Shown: piece after piece, positions 2,228 through 60,293 of the stretch
How the letters are laid out: the number at the start of each line of letters is the position of its first letter
Position numbering within the stretch: the stretch's first letter is position 1
Virus record (IMG/VR): IMGVR_UViG_3300034082_001764
Location: 1 to 60,293 of that record
Direction: 5' to 3' (one strand)
Origin: a virus
DNA: 60,293 nt
Translations under genes and position numbers: made by a program
Notes under the pieces: generated by a model
The model's database searches: none
Seen by the model: the letters and a program-made list of their open reading frames with translations, nothing else
Told to the model about the DNA's origin: nothing

Positions 2228-4143
<1,916 letters not shown>

Positions 4144-18425: not shown

Positions 18426-19526
18426 TTAAAATAAGTCTACAGTTTCCCAAGGCAAGTGATCCTTACCAAAGTGTCCGTAGTTTGTTGTAGTGCCATAAAT
18501 TGGGCGATATAGGTCAAATCGCTCAATGATACCTCGAGGTGTCAAATCAACATTGTCTTGTATCCATTTAGTCAATTCACGACTTTGTGGCTTATGGTCA
18601 GTCTCAACATAAAAACTCATGGGTTGCGCCAACCCAATGGCATAACTGATCTGCACAGTGGCCCAATCAGCTCGACCGCTGGCCACAATGTTCTTGGCAA
18701 GGTATCGCATCATGTAAGCGGCACTGCGATCCACTTTAGTAGGATCTTTGCCTGAGAAGGCTCCACCACCATGAGGAGCATAGCCACCGTAAGTATCAAC
18801 AATAATCTTACGGCCAGTAAGCCCAGTATCGCCATCAGGACCACCGATAACAAATCTACCAGTAGGGTTAATAAAGAATTCAGTTTCATTATCAATGTAT
18901 TTCTCCGGCAACACTCCGCGAATAATATTTTCTACCACCATTCGAACTTGGTCAATGCCTATGTTTTCTGCGTGTTGTGTACTACAAACAACTTTGGCAA
19001 TACGCCGGGGTGTGCCGTCATCGTTGTATTCAAATGTGACTTGACTCTTGGCATCTGGTTCTAGCCAAGTCACTGTGCCTGCTTTGCGGATTTTGGCCAA
19101 CTCTTCAACAATGCGATGGCTCCAGTAAATTGCACTGGGCATGTGCGCTGTGGTTTCGTTGCAGGCATACCCAAACATCAAGCCCTGATCGCCAGCCCCA
19201 AATGTGTCTGTTCCCAGGGCAATGTCGGCACTCTGACCGTGTAACAAATTGGTAATTTCCACTGTGCGCCAGTCAAATCCTGATTGTTCGTAGCCAACAT
19301 CACGTATGACCCTGCGAACAGCACTGTCGATGGCTTCGTCGGAGATCAGTCCCTTGAATTCCCCGGCAATGACCACACGATTGGTTGTGACCAGTGTTTC
19401 GCATGCACAACGTAGTGCAGGGTTCTTCTGTGCCATAAACAAATCTAGCACAGCATCGCTGATGGCATCTGCAATTTTATCTGGGTGTCCTTCTGACACA
19501 CTCTCACTTGTAAACAAATAACTCAT
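18426..19526 (-). CDS. metK: S-adenosylmethionine synthetase
   Basis: This 366-residue enzyme makes S-adenosylmethionine from methionine and ATP. EGHPDKIADAISDAVLD at residues 10-26 holds the ATP-binding His and metal Asp, FGAGDQGLMFGYA is the central signature and GGGAFSGKDPTKVDRSAAY the P-loop-like signature. It is about 15-20 residues shorter than E. coli MetK at the C-terminus but keeps all motifs. In a phage it is unusual; here it accompanies ahcY and several SAM-using enzymes. It is coupled to the upstream gene by ATGA. Confidence 0.96.
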   Translation of the reverse strand: MSYLFTSESVSEGHPDKIADAISDAVLDLFMAQKNPALRCACETLVTTNRVVIAGEFKGLISDEAIDSAVRRVIRDVGYEQSGFDWRTVEITNLLHGQSADIALGTDTFGAGDQGLMFGYACNETTAHMPSAIYWSHRIVEELAKIRKAGTVTWLEPDAKSQVTFEYNDDGTPRRIAKVVCSTQHAENIGIDQVRMVVENIIRGVLPEKYIDNETEFFINPTGRFVIGGPDGDTGLTGRKIIVDTYGGYAPHGGGAFSGKDPTKVDRSAAYMMRYLAKNIVASGRADWATVQISYAIGLAQPMSFYVETDHKPQSRELTKWIQDNVDLTPRGIIERFDLYRPIYGTTTNYGHFGKDHLPWETVDLF

Positions 19527-20138: not shown

Positions 20139-21022
20139 CAAGTGCCCCAGGCATTGCGCCAAATGTCCACCTGCAGTCTTGGGCTGTATCGGTATCCACG
20201 ATCCATGGCCAGCTTGGCAACTTGTTGTGTGTTTAAGTTGTATACCTGCGGCACGCCACCTGCTGGCATCAAATAGATTGGTCCACCAAAGCCAGCCTTG
20301 CGATACAGTTCAACAGCGGCATCAGCGTCGGCAACGTCTTGTTCAGTGGCCACAACAAACTTCAAATACGTGTGGCCAATGTCTTGATAACTTACCACAT
20401 GCTCGGGCTTGATGGCAGTGTCCCAAGGCTCGCCACTGCATGGCAATTTAGGACTCACACTAAATGTCAGCTTGTCGTAATCTCGCCCATGTCGTGTAAA
20501 CTCTTCAAACAAGTATTCGCGCACTTCGGGATACAATGCTTGAGTTCCATTGGTTTCAAAAGTAAGGTCTCTCAAGCCCTGTGCTCGACATGCCTCAAGT
20601 AGCTCAGGATACAACTTTTGATATCCCAACAATGGTTCGCCACCAGTGATCACCAAGTGTGCTTCATTGTTGCGTCCAGCAGTGTCCCAGCGATTGCCGG
20701 GAATCATGGCATGTATTTTATCAGCAATGACCCCAACTTCATCTTGTTCGTTGAAACGTTTGAATTCAGGGTAGATACTAGCATACGTATCGCAACCAGA
20801 ACTCACCAAAGGCAAATCTTTGAACTCTCGATACTGATCAATGTCTTTGATGATCTGGATCACTTCTGGGTTGTGCCCGTCAATGACTTCATCTCGATCA
20901 CGCCCAAACTTGCGACAACGGAAGTTGCACCCGTATGTACGAAAGAAAACACTAGGCACACCGGCCCAGCGTCCTTCACCTTGTACACTATAAAATATCT
21001 CTGTGTAAGTAATTTTTTCCAT
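20138..21022 (-). CDS. queE: 7-carboxy-7-deazaguanine synthase (QueE-like radical SAM)
   Basis: This 294-residue protein is a QueE homologue, which rearranges carboxytetrahydropterin to 7-carboxy-7-deazaguanine on the way to preQ0. [25 protein letters not shown] and VITGGEPLL are clear family motifs. The third cluster cysteine expected two residues after Cys36 is absent (Phe39); Cys77, inside a SSGCDTYAS segment, may replace it. Similar CxxxCxxF variants are known to me from T4-like phages. The protein is about 70 residues longer than bacterial QueE. It works with folE (29170), queD (26177) and the DpdA-like gene (46043). Confidence 0.88.
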
Positions 21023-29169: not shown

Positions 29170-29847
29170 TTAGCGGCAGCTATTGACAATGTTCATGAAT
29201 TCGCTACGAACACTGTGATCAGTTTTGAATACGCCGCCTAATTTGCTTGTGACTGTGCTTGAGCCTGTGTCTTCTACACCACGCGATTTTACACAATAGT
29301 GTTGTGCATCAATCACAACGCCGATATTGTCTGTCTCAAGAATGTATTGCAAGGCATGATACACTTGCTCGGTCAAGCGTTCCTGAATTTGTGGACGCTT
29401 GCTGAAATATTCAACTATGCGATTGATTTTGCTTAGTCCAAGAACTTTTTGTTTGGGAATATACCCCACAGTTGCCAAGCCGTCGATCACAACAAAGTGG
29501 TGTTCGCAATTGCTTTGCACGTTGACATTGCGTTCAACTACCATTTCGTCGTACTTCATTTTGTTGTCTACCGTGGTGCATTTGGGAAACGCTTCGTAGT
29601 CAAGTCCCCAGAAGATTTCATTCACATACATCTTGGCCACACGCTTGGGTGTATCCATTAGACTATCGTCGTTCAAGTCCAATCCCAAGACTTCCATGAT
29701 GTGCTTGAAGTCTTTTTCAATCAAGTCGATCTTGTCTTTGCGATCAACACTGTGCTGAAATGTTGGAGTTTCAACACCACACTTGACCAAGTGTTCGTGT
29801 ACACGTTGACCCAAATCAGGGTCGCATTTTGTTTTGTTGTATGACAT
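29170..29847 (-). CDS. folE: GTP cyclohydrolase I
   Basis: This 225-residue enzyme converts GTP to dihydroneopterin triphosphate, the first step toward both folate and 7-deazaguanine. The zinc site CEHH and the later HYCVKSRG motif with its Cys/Arg residues are intact, as is LGLSKINRIVEYFSKRPQIQERLT. With queD and queE present, the likely product use is 7-deazaguanine made for DNA modification. The C-terminus is slightly longer than in E. coli FolE. Confidence 0.95.
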   Translation of the reverse strand: MSYNKTKCDPDLGQRVHEHLVKCGVETPTFQHSVDRKDKIDLIEKDFKHIMEVLGLDLNDDSLMDTPKRVAKMYVNEIFWGLDYEAFPKCTTVDNKMKYDEMVVERNVNVQSNCEHHFVVIDGLATVGYIPKQKVLGLSKINRIVEYFSKRPQIQERLTEQVYHALQYILETDNIGVVIDAQHYCVKSRGVEDTGSSTVTSKLGGVFKTDHSVRSEFMNIVNSCR

Positions 29848-52261: not shown

Positions 52262-52290
52262 ATTATAACACACCAAGTGACAGATGTCAA
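52262..52290 (-). promoter_or_regulatory. Consensus sigma70 promoter
   Basis: TTGACA (52290-52285), 17 bases, TATAAT (52267-52262) on the minus strand, a perfect match. The -35 lies in the last codons of ahcY. It drives the DsbA-like gene and possibly the polymerase and clamp further downstream. Confidence 0.85.
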
Positions 52291-53588
52291 TAGCGATAAG
52301 TGTCGGGTTTGAACGGTCCGGCAACATCTACTCCAATATAGTCTGCTTGGCGCTGGTCCAATGTGGTCAACATTGCACCAACCTTTTCCAAGTGAAGTCG
52401 TGCCACTTGCTCATCAAGATGCTTGGGCAACAAATAAATTTTTCCAGTTTCATATTGATCGGTGTTGTTGAACATCTCGATCTGAGCCAACACCTGATTG
52501 GTAAAGCTGTTGCTCATAACAAAGCTGGGGTGACCTGTGCCACAACCCAAGTTCACCAAGCGTCCTTTGGCTAGTACAACAATCTTGCGACCGTTAACAA
52601 GTGTAACATGATCTACCAAGGGTTTGATTTCGTCCCACTTGGCATCCTGAATACCAGCAATATCAATTTCGCTGTCAAAGTGGCCAATGTTGCAAACAAT
52701 GGCATTTTCCTTCATGCACAACATGTGCTCACGTGTGATAACACCAATGTTGCCTGTGGCGGTAACAAAAATATCAGCTTTGTCCTTGGCATAATCCATT
52801 GTGACCACTCGGTAACCTTCCATGGCAGCTTGCAGTGCACAAATAGGATCAACTTCTGTAACCCAAACTTGTGCGCTGAGTGCTCGCAAGGCCTGTGCCG
52901 AACCTTTGCCCACATCGCCGTAACCGGCCACCACAGCAACTTTGCCGGCAATCATAACATCAGTGGCACGTTTGATAGCATCAACTAGGCTTTCACGGCA
53001 ACCATACAAGTTGTCAAACTTGGTCTTGGTCACCGAGTCGTTTACGTTGATAGCAGGCAACCGCAGTGTACCAGCGGCAATGCGTTCCAATAATTTGTGG
53101 ATACCTGTTGTGGTTTCTTCTGTAACACCCTTGATACCGGGAATCAGGTCAGGGTGTTTGTCGTGAATGTAGCCAGTTAAGTCGTGCCCATCATCAAGTA
53201 TCATGTTGGGTGTCCAACCGTCTGGTCCACGCACAGTTTGTTCAATGCACCACCAGTATTCCTCTTCCGTCTCGCCCTTCCAGGCAAATACAGGAATACC
53301 CAGATCGGCAATGGCAGCGGCAGCCTGATCTTGTGTGCTAAAGATATTACACGAGCTCCAGCGTACACTTGCACCCAAGGCCACCAGCACCTTGATCAGT
53401 ACAGCAGTTTGAATTGTCATGTGCAAACTGCCCACAATACGTGCACCCTTTAGTGGTTGTTTGTTTTTGTATTGTTCTAATACAGCGTGTAAGCCAGGCA
53501 TTTCGTGCTCGGCAATTGCAATTTCTTTGTGTCCCCAGGGAGCCAGAGAAATGTCGGCGATTTTATAGTCGTTTAAAGGTGTAGTCAT
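52287..53588 (-). CDS. ahcY: Adenosylhomocysteinase
   Basis: This 433-residue enzyme splits S-adenosylhomocysteine, the product inhibitor of methyltransferases, into adenosine and homocysteine. The NAD-binding loop [28 protein letters not shown] with the active-site Lys/Asp/Asn, and the C-terminal KPDTYRY that reaches the neighbouring subunit are all present. Length is normal for the bacterial/archaeal short form. It and metK together complete a SAM cycle in the phage apart from methionine synthase. Rare in phages. Confidence 0.97.
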
Positions 53589-53705: not shown

Positions 53706-53999
53706 CTAGGATTGTTTCTTTAGATGATAGTAAATTTTAACACGTTCCAGCAGTTCGGCCATGCCAGCATCGTTTTCCGACATTCGACGAATATTGCCCC
53801 AGAGTTTGTCTTCCTGTATCTGATCCATGAGACTCTTGGCTCGGGTATTTTGTCCAATCATCACACGCTCAGTACTGCCAGCTTCTCTAGCGTACACTGT
53901 GTCGCCGCCATCAGGACTTTCGTAAATGTAAGTTGCGCCAGATTTAAGATTTCCCATTGATCCAAGTGCCGCCGTGTTGTTGATACCATTTATTGGCAT
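53706..53999 (-). CDS. Conserved phage protein
   Basis: This 97-residue protein begins MPINGINNTAALGSMGNLKSGATYIYE and continues with a charged helical part ending MAELLERVKIYYHLKKQS. The NTAAxGSMGNLxSGxTYIYE segment is a strong family signature in T4-like phages; the role is unknown but the block suggests a virion link. The ATG at 53999 lies inside the end of the 714-residue gene and gives the family start. Confidence 0.78.
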   Translation of the reverse strand: MPINGINNTAALGSMGNLKSGATYIYESPDGGDTVYAREAGSTERVMIGQNTRAKSLMDQIQEDKLWGNIRRMSENDAGMAELLERVKIYYHLKKQS

Positions 54000-56088
54000 A
54001 AATGTTTGCTTGCTTGCTAGGATACACGTTAAACTTGCTTTCTGCAACAATTTTGGCACGATTCCACAAATTTAAATCGCTGGGTGTTGTACGGCCTTCT
54101 GCAACACCTTCTTGCATGTTTTTTAACAGTTCTTGTGCTTTTTCAACACTGATCATGTATCTACCAAAACGATTTGGATCTGCGGCTTTTTGTAGATATT
54201 CTTTGCTAAAACCTTTTGGTGCTTCTGCTGCTGGTTTGTTGTCTGATGGGGCGGTCATTGTTGCAGTTGGCTTTAACCCACCGGTATAGCCACCTTGACC
54301 GTCAGGAGTAACTCTAGCATTGGCGCCTGCTGAACCAAGTGCCATGGCCCCGGCAAGACTTAGTCCTGCCAACTTGGAGCCTAGGCCTTCTGCTAGTCCT
54401 GCTTTTGCTTTGGCTTCTTCTCTGCTGGGACTGAATCCCTGTGACATTGCTGACTGTACTTGGTTAGGATACACTGTTACTTTGAACATTTTACCATCCT
54501 TAACAATGTACCATTCTGTTGGATCTAGGTCGTGACGTTCATCGTTGCCGCCGCCATCTTGTTGATAAGCATATGATTGACGTTTGCCCATACCTGCCAC
54601 ACTACTATCGTAATCTCTTTGATAAGCATCTCTACGATCACGCATTTCATCCAAGCTTTCATTGTAGTTGTCATGCCGGTCGCGAATGGCATCTAAAGTC
54701 TTTTCACTAGCGCCTTCACGACCTGCCTTGGCCAGGGCCTGCATGCCTGCTTTGCCATACTTCTCATAGCCCTTGGCAGCACGGCTCATGCCTTGCTCGC
54801 CTTCCGCCACACCTTCCTGCATGTTGCCCAACATTTGCTCTACATGGCGAACCCAACCACTTACATCACTACTGCCAATTTCTTCTACATCACCTACAAA
54901 GTCAGCAACTTCGTCAATTGCGGCTGTTACTTTTTCTGGACCGTACTTAGATAATAAGTCGGTGCGTTGCATTAATATTCTGCGAGTAATAGCACCGGCC
55001 ACTGGACTGTCTCCTACGCCTTCATTTACGCCTTGTTGACCATACATGTCGATGATTTGTTTAACATAGAAATTATAAAAGCCACGACGGCTATTGTATT
55101 CTCTATCTCCCAGCACAGTCTTTAATGCTTGTACAGCATCATTTAATTTTGGGCCTTGCATTATTTTTAATGCGTCAGTGACCAGTGAATCAACTTGTTG
55201 TGAGCCTTCCGCCACACCTTGCTTTTGCAAACTGAAGTAATTAGACACAACGTCGCCGGAAAAGTCTTCATCATAGTTGAACATATAACGAGCAGATTTT
55301 TGGCCTTGATCATTTGCCACAATGTGGTATGCTTGATTCAACACTTCTTCTTCAGAACTGATATCTTGACGCTTGTCAAAGATTTGTTGTGCCACTTGCT
55401 CGCTGTAGTAGGCGCCAAACTCTGCGCCTTCTGCAACACCTTGCTTGGCCATTCGGCGCTGTTTTAATCGGTCAAACACTTGTTTGGGAGTAAGTTCGCG
55501 ACTGCGACCCATGTCAATGTTTGCTGCCGCAGTGGCAGAAGCTTGTTTGGCTTTGCGAATTTCTTCTGGGCTTGCTGGCAACGTGTTGGGAGACACAGTT
55601 GGTACAGGTGTCATACTGTCTTGTGCTGCCTTGGCTGCGGCAGCACGGCGAGCTGCAAATGCATCTGGAGCCTTGCGGGCAGGCAACGATTGAGTGCTAG
55701 CAGAAGTAGCAACTGCTGGTGTTTGTTGTGCTTGTGCAGGTTGGTTTGATGCTTTGCCAGCATTGTAACCAGCAACGCCACGACCAGCAACTTTGCCCAT
55801 ACCATATCCAGCTTTGTATGCTAGATCTCCAACAATGCCCTCATCAACGTCTTTGGGCCCAACATAGTGATGGTCTTGAACCCGATATCCTTGCTTTTTG
55901 TAAAAGTTAATAGCTGAATCAATTGCACTGTTGCGATCCACAGCTGACACCACAGCACGGCGTTGAATTGGCTCTTTGCGTTGAGTCACTACTGTGCCTT
56001 GCGGATCAGTCACGGTTACCATGACAATGTGTTTGGTACGATCTGGACGAGAGTCTGCACTCTCTTGGAATAGGTTATTGATAATCAT
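53944..56088 (-). CDS. Modular 714-residue phage protein with six G(V/L)xEG motifs
   Basis: This protein has an N-terminal segment MIINNLFQES, an Ala/Pro/Gln-rich linker (100-190) and then modules separated by the pentapeptide G(V/L)(A/N)EG ending at residues 221, 295, 357, 430, 568 and 665. The intervals are about 74, 62, 73, 138 and 97 residues. VxE/G and LxE/G fit the (L/I)xE cleavage rule of T4-type prohead proteases, so it may be cut into pieces inside the head. The last module (NRAKIVAESKFNVYPSKQAN...) is a recurring T4-like phage domain. The GGYTGGLKP region resembles a glycine-rich linker. Function unknown; virion polyprotein is inference. Confidence 0.7.
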   Translation of the reverse strand: MIINNLFQESADSRPDRTKHIVMVTVTDPQGTVVTQRKEPIQRRAVVSAVDRNSAIDSAINFYKKQGYRVQDHHYVGPKDVDEGIVGDLAYKAGYGMGKVAGRGVAGYNAGKASNQPAQAQQTPAVATSASTQSLPARKAPDAFAARRAAAAKAAQDSMTPVPTVSPNTLPASPEEIRKAKQASATAAANIDMGRSRELTPKQVFDRLKQRRMAKQGVAEGAEFGAYYSEQVAQQIFDKRQDISSEEEVLNQAYHIVANDQGQKSARYMFNYDEDFSGDVVSNYFSLQKQGVAEGSQQVDSLVTDALKIMQGPKLNDAVQALKTVLGDREYNSRRGFYNFYVKQIIDMYGQQGVNEGVGDSPVAGAITRRILMQRTDLLSKYGPEKVTAAIDEVADFVGDVEEIGSSDVSGWVRHVEQMLGNMQEGVAEGEQGMSRAAKGYEKYGKAGMQALAKAGREGASEKTLDAIRDRHDNYNESLDEMRDRRDAYQRDYDSSVAGMGKRQSYAYQQDGGGNDERHDLDPTEWYIVKDGKMFKVTVYPNQVQSAMSQGFSPSREEAKAKAGLAEGLGSKLAGLSLAGAMALGSAGANARVTPDGQGGYTGGLKPTATMTAPSDNKPAAEAPKGFSKEYLQKAADPNRFGRYMISVEKAQELLKNMQEGVAEGRTTPSDLNLWNRAKIVAESKFNVYPSKQANIYANKWYQQHGGTWINGKS
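54094..55440 (-). repeat. Dispersed repeat encoding G(V/L)xEG, six copies
   Basis: Copies lie at 54094-54108, 54385-54399, 54799-54813, 55018-55032, 55204-55218 and 55426-55440. Four read GVAEG, one GVNEG, one GLAEG. The residue before is usually Q or E and the flanking DNA (AAGGTGTTGCAGAAGG on the minus strand) is partly conserved in the copies at 55426, 55204, 54799 and 54094. Spacing is irregular, so this is a motif placed between modules, not a simple tandem repeat. Confidence 0.8.
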
Positions 56089-56692
56089 TTTTTTCTTCTA
56101 CGTAGTCTTGGGTTTCAACTGGTTGTTGACGTCGGCGATTGCAAAACATTTCGCATGCTATTACTGCATGATCTAGATTTTCAAATTTTGATTTTGATGG
56201 CTTGTTCTTGATAGTGATCCTGAATCCGTCATCTTCATTGCCATGAATTTTAATTTCGTGACCATCATCTGTGGTCAATGTTTTGACAACTGGGCCCACG
56301 TGATCAATGTTGGTGTTGACCTTGTCTTTGAGGTCAGGGTCTGTTCGTATCTCATCCTCAATAGTCTTGAGATAATCACCTAGCTTTTTCTTTACTGCAC
56401 TGATTACATCTTCGGCTACTGGGTGCACAGGATCCAACTCCAGTTGCTTGGCGTCAAGATCAAGCTCATGCCCAAACGAACTTGTGTCTTCTTCCACATC
56501 GTCGTCAATGCTTTCACCGCCTACAAAATAACCCTTCATTGGATTTTTGGGATCAGTTTTGCTGCCAAGTACTGGACTGATATCTTTGGGTTTGAACAAT
56601 GCCGGCAGTTGCTTGACACTGGTTTGATTGGCGTCGAGCCCCTCTTCCACTTGCTTGAAGCGATTTAAAATATCTCTAATGTCGTTGCTCAT
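56075..56692 (-). CDS. Phage protein with possible head-leader, hypothetical
   Basis: This 205-residue acidic protein begins MSNDIRDILNRFKQVEEGLD; VEE/G at residues 15-17 would fit a prohead-protease site. A long polar/acidic stretch (60-110) is followed by a beta-rich TTDDGHEIKIHGNEDDGFRITIKN domain and a final helix. It overlaps the 714-residue gene by 14 bases. Function is unknown; it shares the structural block. Confidence 0.7.
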   Translation of the reverse strand: MSNDIRDILNRFKQVEEGLDANQTSVKQLPALFKPKDISPVLGSKTDPKNPMKGYFVGGESIDDDVEEDTSSFGHELDLDAKQLELDPVHPVAEDVISAVKKKLGDYLKTIEDEIRTDPDLKDKVNTNIDHVGPVVKTLTTDDGHEIKIHGNEDDGFRITIKNKPSKSKFENLDHAVIACEMFCNRRRQQPVETQDYVEEKNDYQ

Positions 56693-57129
56693 GCTCGATC
56701 ATCCTTTAGAAAACTGCGCAACATCCAGCCGTTCTTGCCATGCGCATCAAGACGTTCGGCTATAAAGTTGGCAATACCTTGATTGTTTTCTTGTTCAGCA
56801 GATGCAAAACATTGATTCAATAAATCAATCATGGTGTTGTTATTTTCGAGTAATTCTTCAATCATGAGCCGAGCTCTGGGAATTTTAGTCTGTCCAGGAA
56901 TTACGCTGAGTTCCTGAAATCGTTCAAATGATCCTGGGCTATATTCCTGCAGAGTTCTCACATACTCAGCAATTTTATCAACTGCACTGTATACTTCTTC
57001 ATAAAAGTTGGCAAAGAAGTCATGGTATTGAGCAAAGTCGGGACCTTCTACATTCCAGTGAAAGTTTTGAGCCTTGACACTCAATGCATATTGTGAGGCC
57101 AGTAGCGTTTTTAAATCATTTGCGAGCAT
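56689..57129 (-). CDS. Dps/ferritin-like DNA-protection protein
   Basis: This 146-residue four-helix protein matches the Dps family: NFHWNVEGPDFAQYHDFFANFYEEVYSAVDKIAEYVR carries the inter-subunit ferroxidase His (about 24 and 36), Asp and Glu residues. Dps proteins oxidise iron, remove peroxide and bind DNA. Phage Dps-like proteins are known. Its place between head-type proteins suggests packaging or protection of phage DNA. It lacks the basic N-terminal tail used for DNA binding in E. coli Dps. Confidence 0.85.
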   Translation of the reverse strand: MLANDLKTLLASQYALSVKAQNFHWNVEGPDFAQYHDFFANFYEEVYSAVDKIAEYVRTLQEYSPGSFERFQELSVIPGQTKIPRARLMIEELLENNNTMIDLLNQCFASAEQENNQGIANFIAERLDAHGKNGWMLRSFLKDDRA

Positions 57130-58737: not shown

Positions 58738-59211
58738 CTATAGTCCAATTTTTGCAGGGTACATTGGTCCAGACTCGACTCTTTCGCCACCATCAAAATA
58801 GCTGATTTCCACGGGCAAGGAATCCCAACCCAATCTATATGCAGCCATGATACGATGATTGCCTTCGTTGACCCATGCGCTGCCATCATAGGCCACATTG
58901 ATAAAAGGCTTGTATTCTTCGCCAGTGTGGCCATGTAGTGGTAGCTTGCCAGTGTCCTTCATTATTTTCATAATGGCTGCTAAGTCTGCTTGACGTACAT
59001 TTTGTTGTTCATTACGCATGCCGGGTATTCTGGCCAGCTTGGTTACAGGAACTTCTACTTGCCTAACAGTAGCAGTGGTCTTGCCCATGTAAGGTAATCC
59101 GCGACGATCAGGGCTATGTTCCTTGGCATACTCAATGGCATTATTCAGCCACTCTTCATTGGGCACATCTACATTCAGTGTGCCTTCTATTATGAATTCA
59201 CATGCTCTCAT
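58738..59211 (-). CDS. Leader-bearing ParB/sulfiredoxin-like phage protein
   Basis: This 157-residue protein starts with leader MRACEFIIEG (IIE/G). The rest fits a ParB-like/Srx fold: VEVPVTKLARIPGM, a helical QQNVRQADLAAIMKIM, FINVAYDGSAWVNEGNHRIMAAYRLGWDSLPVEI with the EGNHR motif that binds nucleotide in ParB-type proteins. It could be a nuclease, nucleotide-dependent switch or DNA-binding factor delivered with the head. The ATG at 59211 overlaps the next gene's stop (ATGA). Confidence 0.75.
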   Translation of the reverse strand: MRACEFIIEGTLNVDVPNEEWLNNAIEYAKEHSPDRRGLPYMGKTTATVRQVEVPVTKLARIPGMRNEQQNVRQADLAAIMKIMKDTGKLPLHGHTGEEYKPFINVAYDGSAWVNEGNHRIMAAYRLGWDSLPVEISYFDGGERVESGPMYPAKIGL

Positions 59212-59585
59212 TTGTTTCGTCCTGATTTCATATTGGCGCACCAGTGATACATTTTGGCACGTTCGCCCGATGCATTCTTTGCTCGTTGTCTTAGGTCAGT
59301 AACTGAACCATTGCAGCTGGCACCAGCACGTTTTACACGACCTGGTCGGCTTTTGCCTTTTACCTTGCCGTCTGCAAAGTTTTCTGCTATGCTGTCTTTG
59401 ACCCACTCGTCTGGGGTCATGTTATATTTTTTTACAAAAAGATCATGCAGTCTCTTGGCAGTGATATTTGACTTGTCTGCAATGGTCTGCATCATATGAT
59501 CTATTGCATCATAGCTATGAGGATTTTTTAAATCTTTTATCAAATCCTCAACAGCACCTTCTGTTACAAATTCTTGTGCTCGCAT
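59208..59585 (-). CDS. Leader-bearing phage protein, basic C-terminus
   Basis: This 125-residue protein begins MRAQEFVTEG (VTE/G), has a central helical region (LHDLFVKKYNMTPDEWVKDSI) and a basic end KGKSRPGRVKRAGASCNGSVTDLR...MYHWCANMKSGRNK. The last part recurs in T4-like phages. A head-internal or DNA-binding role is inference. The ATG at 59585 gives the leader; the longer upstream frame lies inside the next gene. Confidence 0.75.
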   Translation of the reverse strand: MRAQEFVTEGAVEDLIKDLKNPHSYDAIDHMMQTIADKSNITAKRLHDLFVKKYNMTPDEWVKDSIAENFADGKVKGKSRPGRVKRAGASCNGSVTDLRQRAKNASGERAKMYHWCANMKSGRNK

Positions 59586-59586
59586 A

Positions 59587-60293
59587 CTAGCAATTCCATT
59601 TGCGCAATGCCAATGCTTTTCTAGTAGGGTCACCGTTGGGTTTCTTCATGGGGCCTTTTACTCCGCCCATTCTAGCACAGAATGATTTGCGGCGCTTGGC
59701 TGCTTTGCTACCGGGCTTTAGTTTACTTGGCTTTGTGGTCACGGCCATTTGCAGTTTGCTACCAGGATTCTCTCTGCGATAACTGGCCACACCCTTGGCA
59801 TTCAGGCCGCCTTTTTTGCTCTTGCCTTCTTTTCTGCGCCAGGCCGCTGTTTCGTACAGCACATGGTCTGGCAAGGCTTCAAAACTTTCCCACACTTGAT
59901 CAACATCAACACCATCTCGCTGAGCCACTTCTTCAGCCAACTGGTCCATGGCTTCAAACATGGCGTCAATTTCAGGATCTACCTCGTCAGAAGATTCTTC
60001 ACTATACATATAGTCCCACACACTTACCAACATTGATTTGGCCACAGCAATCTTTTCTTGACACCATTCAGGCAAGTTATCACCTGATTGAATTAGGTCA
60101 TCGATGCCTCGAACCGCACGTTCCAGCGTTTCAAGATTGTTTTCAGCCATGCCTGCTTCGTCATCGTACTCGGGGTTGTAGTTTTCCGCCATACTTTTCT
60201 TTTTGTCGGCAATTTGTTTTTCAAGTTCACGGATGCGAGCTTGTGTTGCGGCTTGGTCTCGCAGTGGTGCTTTTTTCTGTGCATTTTGACGTA
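59587..60293 (-). CDS. Partial phage protein (5' end beyond window)
   Basis: The frame stays open to the right edge, so the first residues are missing. The visible 235 residues start with a Lys/Gln/Glu coiled-coil (RIRELEKQIADKKK), then MAENYNPEYDDEAGMAENN..., an acidic domain, AWRRKEGKSKKGGLNAKGVASYRRENPGS and a basic end with ARMGGVKGPMKKPNGDPTRKALALRKWNC. The C-terminal region is a recurring phage domain with conserved Cys. The internal ATG at 60192 is not the likely start. Structural or DNA-binding role is inference. Confidence 0.75.
   Translation of the reverse strand, partial: RQNAQKKAPLRDQAATQARIRELEKQIADKKKSMAENYNPEYDDEAGMAENNLETLERAVRGIDDLIQSGDNLPEWCQEKIAVAKSMLVSVWDYMYSEESSDEVDPEIDAMFEAMDQLAEEVAQRDGVDVDQVWESFEALPDHVLYETAAWRRKEGKSKKGGLNAKGVASYRRENPGSKLQMAVTTKPSKLKPGSKAAKRRKSFCARMGGVKGPMKKPNGDPTRKALALRKWNC

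Follow-up and report, generated by a model that had tools for sequence, protein, structure and literature searches.

A mosaic gene of uncultured T4-type phages with short conserved joints, a candidate head-cargo polyprotein

The modular gene and its locus

The window analyzed in this study is the whole stretch of 60,293 nucleotides of the IMG/VR record IMGVR_UViG_3300034082_001764, which carries on its minus strand an open reading frame (ORF) at positions 53944-56088 that encodes a protein of 714 amino acids. The six G(V/L)(A/N)EG sites reported for this protein in the initial annotation were confirmed at residues 217-221, 291-295, 353-357, 426-430, 564-568, and 661-665. When the 714-residue protein was shuffled 20,000 times the motif G[VL][AN]EG occurred with a mean of 0.007 and a maximum of one copy as compared to the six observed, and a pure chance motif was therefore rejected; the five-residue motif was absent from every other ORF of the window. 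The sites had been described as regularly placed, which is loose wording because their spacing spans 62-138 residues. The segments between them had been described as unlike in sequence, and each was indeed found to match its own set of relatives (residues 216-295, 289-356, 351-432, 484-563, and 567-665).

The features of the locus are listed below, where motif copies are termed joints, the segments that they bound are termed modules, a slash marks a putative cut, and L numbers denote related viral loci.

53944..56088, minus strand: modular protein of 714 residues, proposed head-cargo polyprotein; 35 other viral loci share individual modules with it
56062..56088, minus strand: candidate capsid-targeting propeptide MIINNLFQE (residues 1-9), followed by S; putative cut after FQE, based on a pattern match
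55840..56061, minus strand: module 1 (residues 10-83), ending VDE/G; homologous segments in L063, L153, L211, and L236
55429..55839, minus strand: low-complexity linker after module 1 (residues 84-220)
55426..55440, minus strand: joint 1, GVAEG (residues 217-221), DNA GGTGTTGCAGAAGGC
55207..55428, minus strand: module 2 (residues 221-294), matching modules between joints in L010 (88% identity) and L011 (84% identity)
55204..55218, minus strand: joint 2, GVAEG (residues 291-295), DNA GGTGTGGCGGAAGGC, the consensus joint
55021..55206, minus strand: module 3 (residues 295-356), of a family with 7 different right and 11 different left neighbors
55018..55032, minus strand: joint 3, GVNEG (residues 353-357)
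54802..55020, minus strand: module 4 (residues 357-429), homologs in L003, L069, L070, L121, and L235
54799..54822, minus strand: joint 4, tandem sites MQE/GVAE/G (residues 423-430)
54388..54801, minus strand: module 5 (residues 430-567), 89% identity to L008 over residues 481-563
54385..54399, minus strand: joint 5, GLAEG (residues 564-568), the sole strict (L/I)xE fit of the six
54097..54387, minus strand: module 6 (residues 568-664), 74% identity to L015; also in L153, L185, and L204
54094..54117, minus strand: joint 6, tandem sites MQE/GVAE/G (residues 658-665)
53947..54096, minus strand: module 7 (residues 665-714), about 40% identity to cyanophage proteins P-TIM68 AIR93437 and S-BM3 SBM3_00185
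56075..56692, minus strand: gene directly upstream of the modular gene; placement kept in L005, L069, L070, L152, L153, and L156
58738..59211, minus strand: stand-alone ParB-like module with the targeting-like N-terminus MRACEFIIE/G
59208..59585, minus strand: stand-alone module with the targeting-like N-terminus MRAQEFVTE/G; the same domain is fused in the multi-joint protein of L170
59587..60192, minus strand: second modular protein with a C-terminal DUF6321 (PF19846)

The Pfam search of the window protein returned no match, the PHROG match was marginal only, and Foldseek of the full model against the PDB returned no match at E <= 0.001; no function of the window modules was recognizable from these three sources. 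The AlphaFold model had low overall confidence (pLDDT 61, pTM 0.32). Within it module 1 forms a small alpha/beta domain that is confident around residues 21-80, the joints at 426, 564, and 661 lie in moderately confident predicted helices and not in clear loops, and those at 217, 291, and 353 lie in low-confidence regions. Since the full-length alignments A1 and A2 put some fragments in the wrong place, the structure model was treated as weak evidence only.

Homologs of residues 484-563 of module 5 were found alone, and in the module 3 family VAE, MNE, or VEE also precede the module in place of GVAE. The P-TIM68 and S-BM3 relatives of module 7 adjoin terminase. The protein at 59587..60192 has the degenerate joint SMAEN where L108 and L147 align with QGVAEDYN. 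No match to the T4-type late-promoter consensus TATAAATA was found near the modular gene, and there was no signal upstream of the CTS-type genes.

Several neighboring genes were recorded in passing. The gene at 56689-57129, directly upstream in the modular locus, is Dps/ferritin-like (Pfam Ferritin, E-value 1.6e-23), and a similar gene adjoins the modular gene of the relative G002 (L060 6873-7316). In L105 (5338-8178) the counterpart of the window gene 56075-56692 is apparently split, its N-terminal part, the modular array, and its C-terminal part forming a single ORF of 947 amino acids. Inspection by eye indicated a GroEL and GroES chaperonin pair from N-terminal resemblance (2231-3847 and 3859-4143), a likely methyl-cycle pair of S-adenosylmethionine synthetase and S-adenosylhomocysteine hydrolase (18429-19526 and 52287-53588), and a QueE-like radical SAM start (20141-21022). 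The latter, together with a GTP cyclohydrolase (29170-29847, PHROG match), suggests a deazaguanine DNA-modification pathway.

Mosaic relatives

A protein-based search of IMG/VR with the window protein retrieved 37 loci, two of which encode the identical protein and 35 of which match parts of it only. Residues 216-295 match L010 and L011, residues 289-356 match L070 and L153, residues 351-432 match L005, L069, and L121, residues 481-563 match L008, residues 567-658 match L015, and residues 648-711 match cyanophage P-TIM68. The motif, on whose presence in homologs the earlier cut-site proposal depended, was present between their modules, and most relatives carry it as QGVAEG, which parts unrelated modules in more than 100 proteins of uncultured T4-type phages. 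Among the matches listed, 99 of the 174 proteins caught by the joint DNA have at least two motifs and up to seven, mostly spaced by 40-200 residues.

Local alignments between modular proteins ended within three residues of a motif in 24% of cases as compared to 4% for random positions. The 269 fully bounded modules that were sampled fell into 161 families, the largest of which have 7-11 different neighbors each. Enzyme-like modules in the relatives comprise GNAT, ParB_N, HD, cytidine deaminase, cytidylyltransferase-like, GH19, LysM, and NT5C domains. Module shuffling among related phages is well supported.

Gains and losses of modules run from joint to joint. A 301-bp module of L136, with AAAGGTGTGGCGGAAGGC and CAAGGTGTGGCGGAAGGC as its two boundaries, is missing from L173, which retains a single joint and has flanks that are 91-97% identical. 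A 923-bp block of L015 bounded by CAAGGTGT joints is missing in L022, L024, and L027, a 189-bp module with joint boundaries sets L005 and L006 apart from L069, and L165 has an exact 201-bp tandem duplication of one module plus one joint.

The joint as a DNA element

The joint DNA AAGCAAGGTGTGGCGGAAGGC, of about 18-20 bp, is conserved at synonymous positions. Its Val codon is GTG in 79% of copies as compared to 24% in the remainder of the proteins that carry it, and its Ala codon is GCG in 78% as compared to 11%, both counted outside the search seeds. Loci fetched by protein similarity alone have the same joint codon bias, and other synonymous spellings of the joint were found in eight and two multi-joint proteins versus at least 130 matches for the favored spelling. 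A sampling artifact of the exact-DNA search was thus rejected as the source of the bias since protein-fetched loci and non-seed copies agree, and the synonymous-spelling controls also count against it. Beyond about 20 bp conservation is at background level, in a set that was mostly found via a 17-mer and is for this reason biased in its inner part.

At least 120 stretches of viral contigs contain this 17-mer, CAAGGTGTGGCGGAAGG, and none was found with its letters in reverse order. Among the matches listed, 230 of the 235 to the two commonest joint spellings are read as QGVAEG within a long ORF, and a DNA-only repeat that is blind to frame was rejected on this count. Matches in 50,697 cultured phage records were at chance level only. 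Bacterial genomes yielded 26 exact 18-mers in 257 Gb, about the chance expectation, and none of those inspected lay within a recognizable multi-joint modular protein. The initial annotation missed both this conservation of the joint at the DNA level and its place as the seam along which modules are exchanged.

In their direct orientation and in the joint-to-joint indels of modules, the 18-20 bp joints are reminiscent of an integron-like cassette array, and joint plus module could be a selfish intragenic cassette whose movement depends on a dedicated recombinase with the joint as its recognition site. A directly repeated DNA site, sharp bounds, and the precise presence or absence of modules would suit such an element, but visual inspection revealed no palindrome in the joint, a non-systematic look found no recombinase, and joint identity is only partial in some exchanges, as homologous recombination would give. 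The reading frame is moreover almost always kept, which argues for selection on the protein. We regard a mobile element of this kind as very improbable.

GVAEG could also be the mere translation of a DNA homology patch, a recombination seam and linker within an uncut multidomain ('polyvalent') head or injected protein. Conservation of the joint DNA, joint-to-joint indels, and duplication account for GVAEG without a protease, and phages are known to encode polyvalent proteins with many domains (PMC5512222). The evidence that bears against this explanation comes from module starts and N-termini, which are considered in the next two sections.

The joint as a putative protease site

The prohead protease gp21 of T4 cuts after (L/I)xE (PMC9026906). 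This strict consensus is matched by LAE567 only among the six sites of the window protein, the P3 residue being Val and not Leu or Ile in the other five. The initial annotation had proposed a fit to a relaxed form of the gp21 rule, and the relaxed form [LIVMF]xE[GSADN] was in excess in the window protein, with 11 copies versus 3.3 in shuffles (P about 3e-4). Strict (L/I)xE was not in excess (3 versus 3.3 in shuffles).

Modules that are elsewhere preceded by GVAE/G were examined at the 308 places where they start without GVAEG. At 47% of these the start matches [LIVMF]xE[GSADN], compared to 5.7% at shifted control positions. Glu stands at P1 in 117 of the 183 distinct upstream contexts without GVAEG, and in 82% of those 117 sites P3 is hydrophobic as compared to a background of 21% (p about 1e-44); P2, P4, and P5 have no hydrophobic preference. 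After possible worn-down GVAEG copies were dropped, P3 was hydrophobic in 56 of 73 sites (77%, p about 6e-24). Related sequences in these statistics are not fully independent, so that both p-values overstate the significance. The ParB-like module illustrates the pattern, being preceded by FIIE/G in the stand-alone gene of the window (58738-59211) and, within fused proteins, by GVAE/G in L170, LTE/S in L131, MTE/S in L122, and VTE/G in L184. Judged by its residue preferences, the hydrophobic-x-E at module starts has the form of the T4 gp21 rule (L/I)-x-E, loosened at P3. A hydrophobic-x-E ahead of homologous modules that have no GVAEG is not predicted if the joint is a seam and linker only.

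No gp21-type protease and no gp23 capsid gene were recognized in the window, a 60-kb fragment, nor was gp21 (peptidase S77) recovered from its twin contig. The three joint-bearing relatives G001-G003 encode both gp23 and a gp21 of the peptidase S77 type; among them, G002 has the same order of Dps, modular gene, small gene, and PolB as the window and G003 has the modular gene, small gene, and PolB part of it.

Targeting-like N-termini and resemblance to gp23

Internal proteins of T4 carry propeptides of 10-19 residues that direct entry into the head and are then removed by gp21 (PMC9026906). Genes near the modular genes begin with MRAxEFIxE, MKIxEIIxE, MxxNDLFE, and similar sequences. The pattern M-x(2-4)-[EDN]-[FLI]-[FLIVY] was matched by 221 of 2017 N-termini as compared to 30 in shuffles. 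Targeting-like N-termini left unconstrained at the cut site have a hydrophobic residue at position 7 in 81% of cases and Glu at position 9 in 57%, and [LIVMF]xE stands at positions 7-9 in 69 of 86 MRAx[ED]F starts. The codons of MRAxEFIxE vary freely (GAA/GAG 39/25, TTT/TTC 49/21), unlike those of the joint, as would be expected of a peptide conserved only as protein. The start of the window protein, MIINNLFQE/S, fits the pattern with Phe at P3; MRAQEFVTE/G and MRACEFIIE/G of the neighboring stand-alone genes are nearer to a targeting peptide ending in (L/I)xE. Nor would a joint that serves as seam and linker alone predict such N-termini on stand-alone modules, where they end in the same motif as the joints; we consider this explanation rather unlikely.

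In the three joint-bearing relatives the likely cut sites of gp23, assigned by similarity, are YLKE/NASAGSTSAGNIA, YLAE/SATSGATSAGNIA, and YLGE/SATAGATSTGNIA. Small proteins of the targeting type have the starts MKIRDILE/SATAGATSAGNIA (L139) and MKIREIILDE/SATAGATSTANIG (L182), and the modular proteins of G002 and G003 begin with the related YTLE/SASAGATGAGAIA and YTLE/SMTAGATGSGSVA. The context of the gp23 maturation site, LxE/SATAGATSAGNIA, is thus reused at the N-termini of targeting-type and modular proteins. We noted (L/I)E/SATAGATSAGNIA as an N-terminal motif kept in L060 7690-9117, L061 5068-7758, and L139 9778-10035 and common to the cleavage region of the gp23 propeptide; it is a candidate signature of prohead-protease substrates in joint-bearing phages. 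Some targeting-peptide genes and modules (L086 1316-2602, L067, and L170) have YHFTG- or YHATM-like starts that by eye appear ADP-ribosyltransferase-like, recalling T4 Alt, which is itself head cargo.

Comparison with known systems

The internal head proteins of T4 (IPI, IPII, IPIII, and Alt) are similar in being small variable accessory proteins with a short N-terminal peptide that ends in hydrophobic-x-E, and gp21 and gp23 are present in the joint-bearing relatives. They differ in being encoded by separate genes with one main N-terminal cut, whereas the window system strings many modules into one chain whose internal sites recur and mostly have Val at P3, unlike those of the T4 internal proteins.

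Short conserved DNA at module borders serves as a recombination seam in the boundary sequences of lambdoid phages and in the mobile PeSL cassettes of T4-type phages. These seams lie between genes, whereas that of the window lies in frame inside one ORF, where it probably also encodes a protease site.

The polyvalent proteins encoded by phages and conjugative elements join disparate modules, including ParB-like and peptidoglycan-acting ones, and are thought to be injected with the DNA; Iyer et al. (2017) likened them to polyproteins, with embedded peptidase domains as the presumed means of release (PMC5512222). The relatives of the window protein likewise have disparate domains on one chain (GNAT, ParB, HD, deaminase, and GH19), the modules of the window protein itself being unannotated. 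They differ in their small modules and in having as joints a repeated, DNA-conserved site that fits the maturation protease of the phage. An embedded peptidase domain, which is a polyvalent trait, was absent from the window protein and from the families listed for 50 relatives.

The cyanophage proteins encoded between gp16 and gp17 (S-B43 QDH50481, a 'structural protein'; P-TIM68 AIR93437; S-BM3 SBM3_00185) share modules with the window system, namely a DUF6321-type C-terminus, CW..GMKKKGG, and the last module of the window protein. Some of their modules are separated by hxE[GSA] (VxE/G-type). Those examined are shorter and without QGVAEG joints.

A putative head-cargo polyprotein

The gene is probably a cassette array of a T4-type phage that encodes a head-cargo polyprotein, cut by a gp21-type protease and recombining at its joints. 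This reading builds on the observed mosaicism, joint-to-joint indels and duplication, joint DNA conservation, hydrophobic-x-E rule, and capsid-targeting-like N-termini of stand-alone genes. The initial annotation had proposed a head polyprotein cut at the motif sites and released as several peptides. The site rule, the targeting-like N-termini, and the likeness to the gp23 site support this in part, and we infer the cleavage and presence in the virion, as well as packaging, injection, and module functions; several folded modules is a better reading than several peptides.

The N-terminal targeting peptide would probably bring the polyprotein into the prohead core, where a gp21-type prohead protease would cut after Glu at the hydrophobic-x-E/G sites. 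The predicted pieces are residues 1-9, 10-83, 84-220, 221-294, 295-356, 357-429, 430-567, 568-664, and 665-714. The freed modules (about 50-140 amino acids) would be packaged alongside the DNA and would probably enter the host by injection. The near-fixed 18-20 bp of joint DNA would double as homology for recombination, by which modules would be gained, lost, duplicated, and traded in frame with the cut site kept.

A gp21 substrate could alternatively be a core or scaffold protein like T4 gp22 and gp67, mostly expelled at maturation, with modules that are not effectors. In T4 the core proteins are processed to several fragments (PMC9026906), and the window protein is variable and partly of low complexity. 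Genes that by position and composition are gp22-, gp67-, and gp68-like are, however, separate in the relatives, where they lie beside gp21 and gp23; module content is freely variable and includes enzyme families, and modules are also found as stand-alone genes. We consider a core or scaffold role improbable, and the enzyme-like modules of the relatives would suit head cargo better than a scaffold.

Under the preferred head-cargo reading, the locus may tentatively represent a previously undescribed single-gene cassette system, a proposal that we put at somewhat less than even, in which one 18-20 bp joint is both the in-frame seam of module exchange and the codons of a maturation-protease site. 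Any module acquired at such a joint would therefore be packaged, released, and delivered automatically. In the open-licence literature we found neither the joint nor a head polyprotein of a T4-type phage described, and no relevant paper that mentions GVAEG; they may have been mentioned earlier elsewhere.

T4-type phages rank among the most abundant aquatic viruses, and a known role is lacking for most of their accessory proteins. Should the modules that follow hydrophobic-x-E joints prove to be head cargo, a large catalog of candidate injected proteins would follow from a simple sequence rule, given the 161 module families, many of them unannotated, in a small sample. If true, this would also show how a phage keeps an arsenal of anti-host modules interchangeable.
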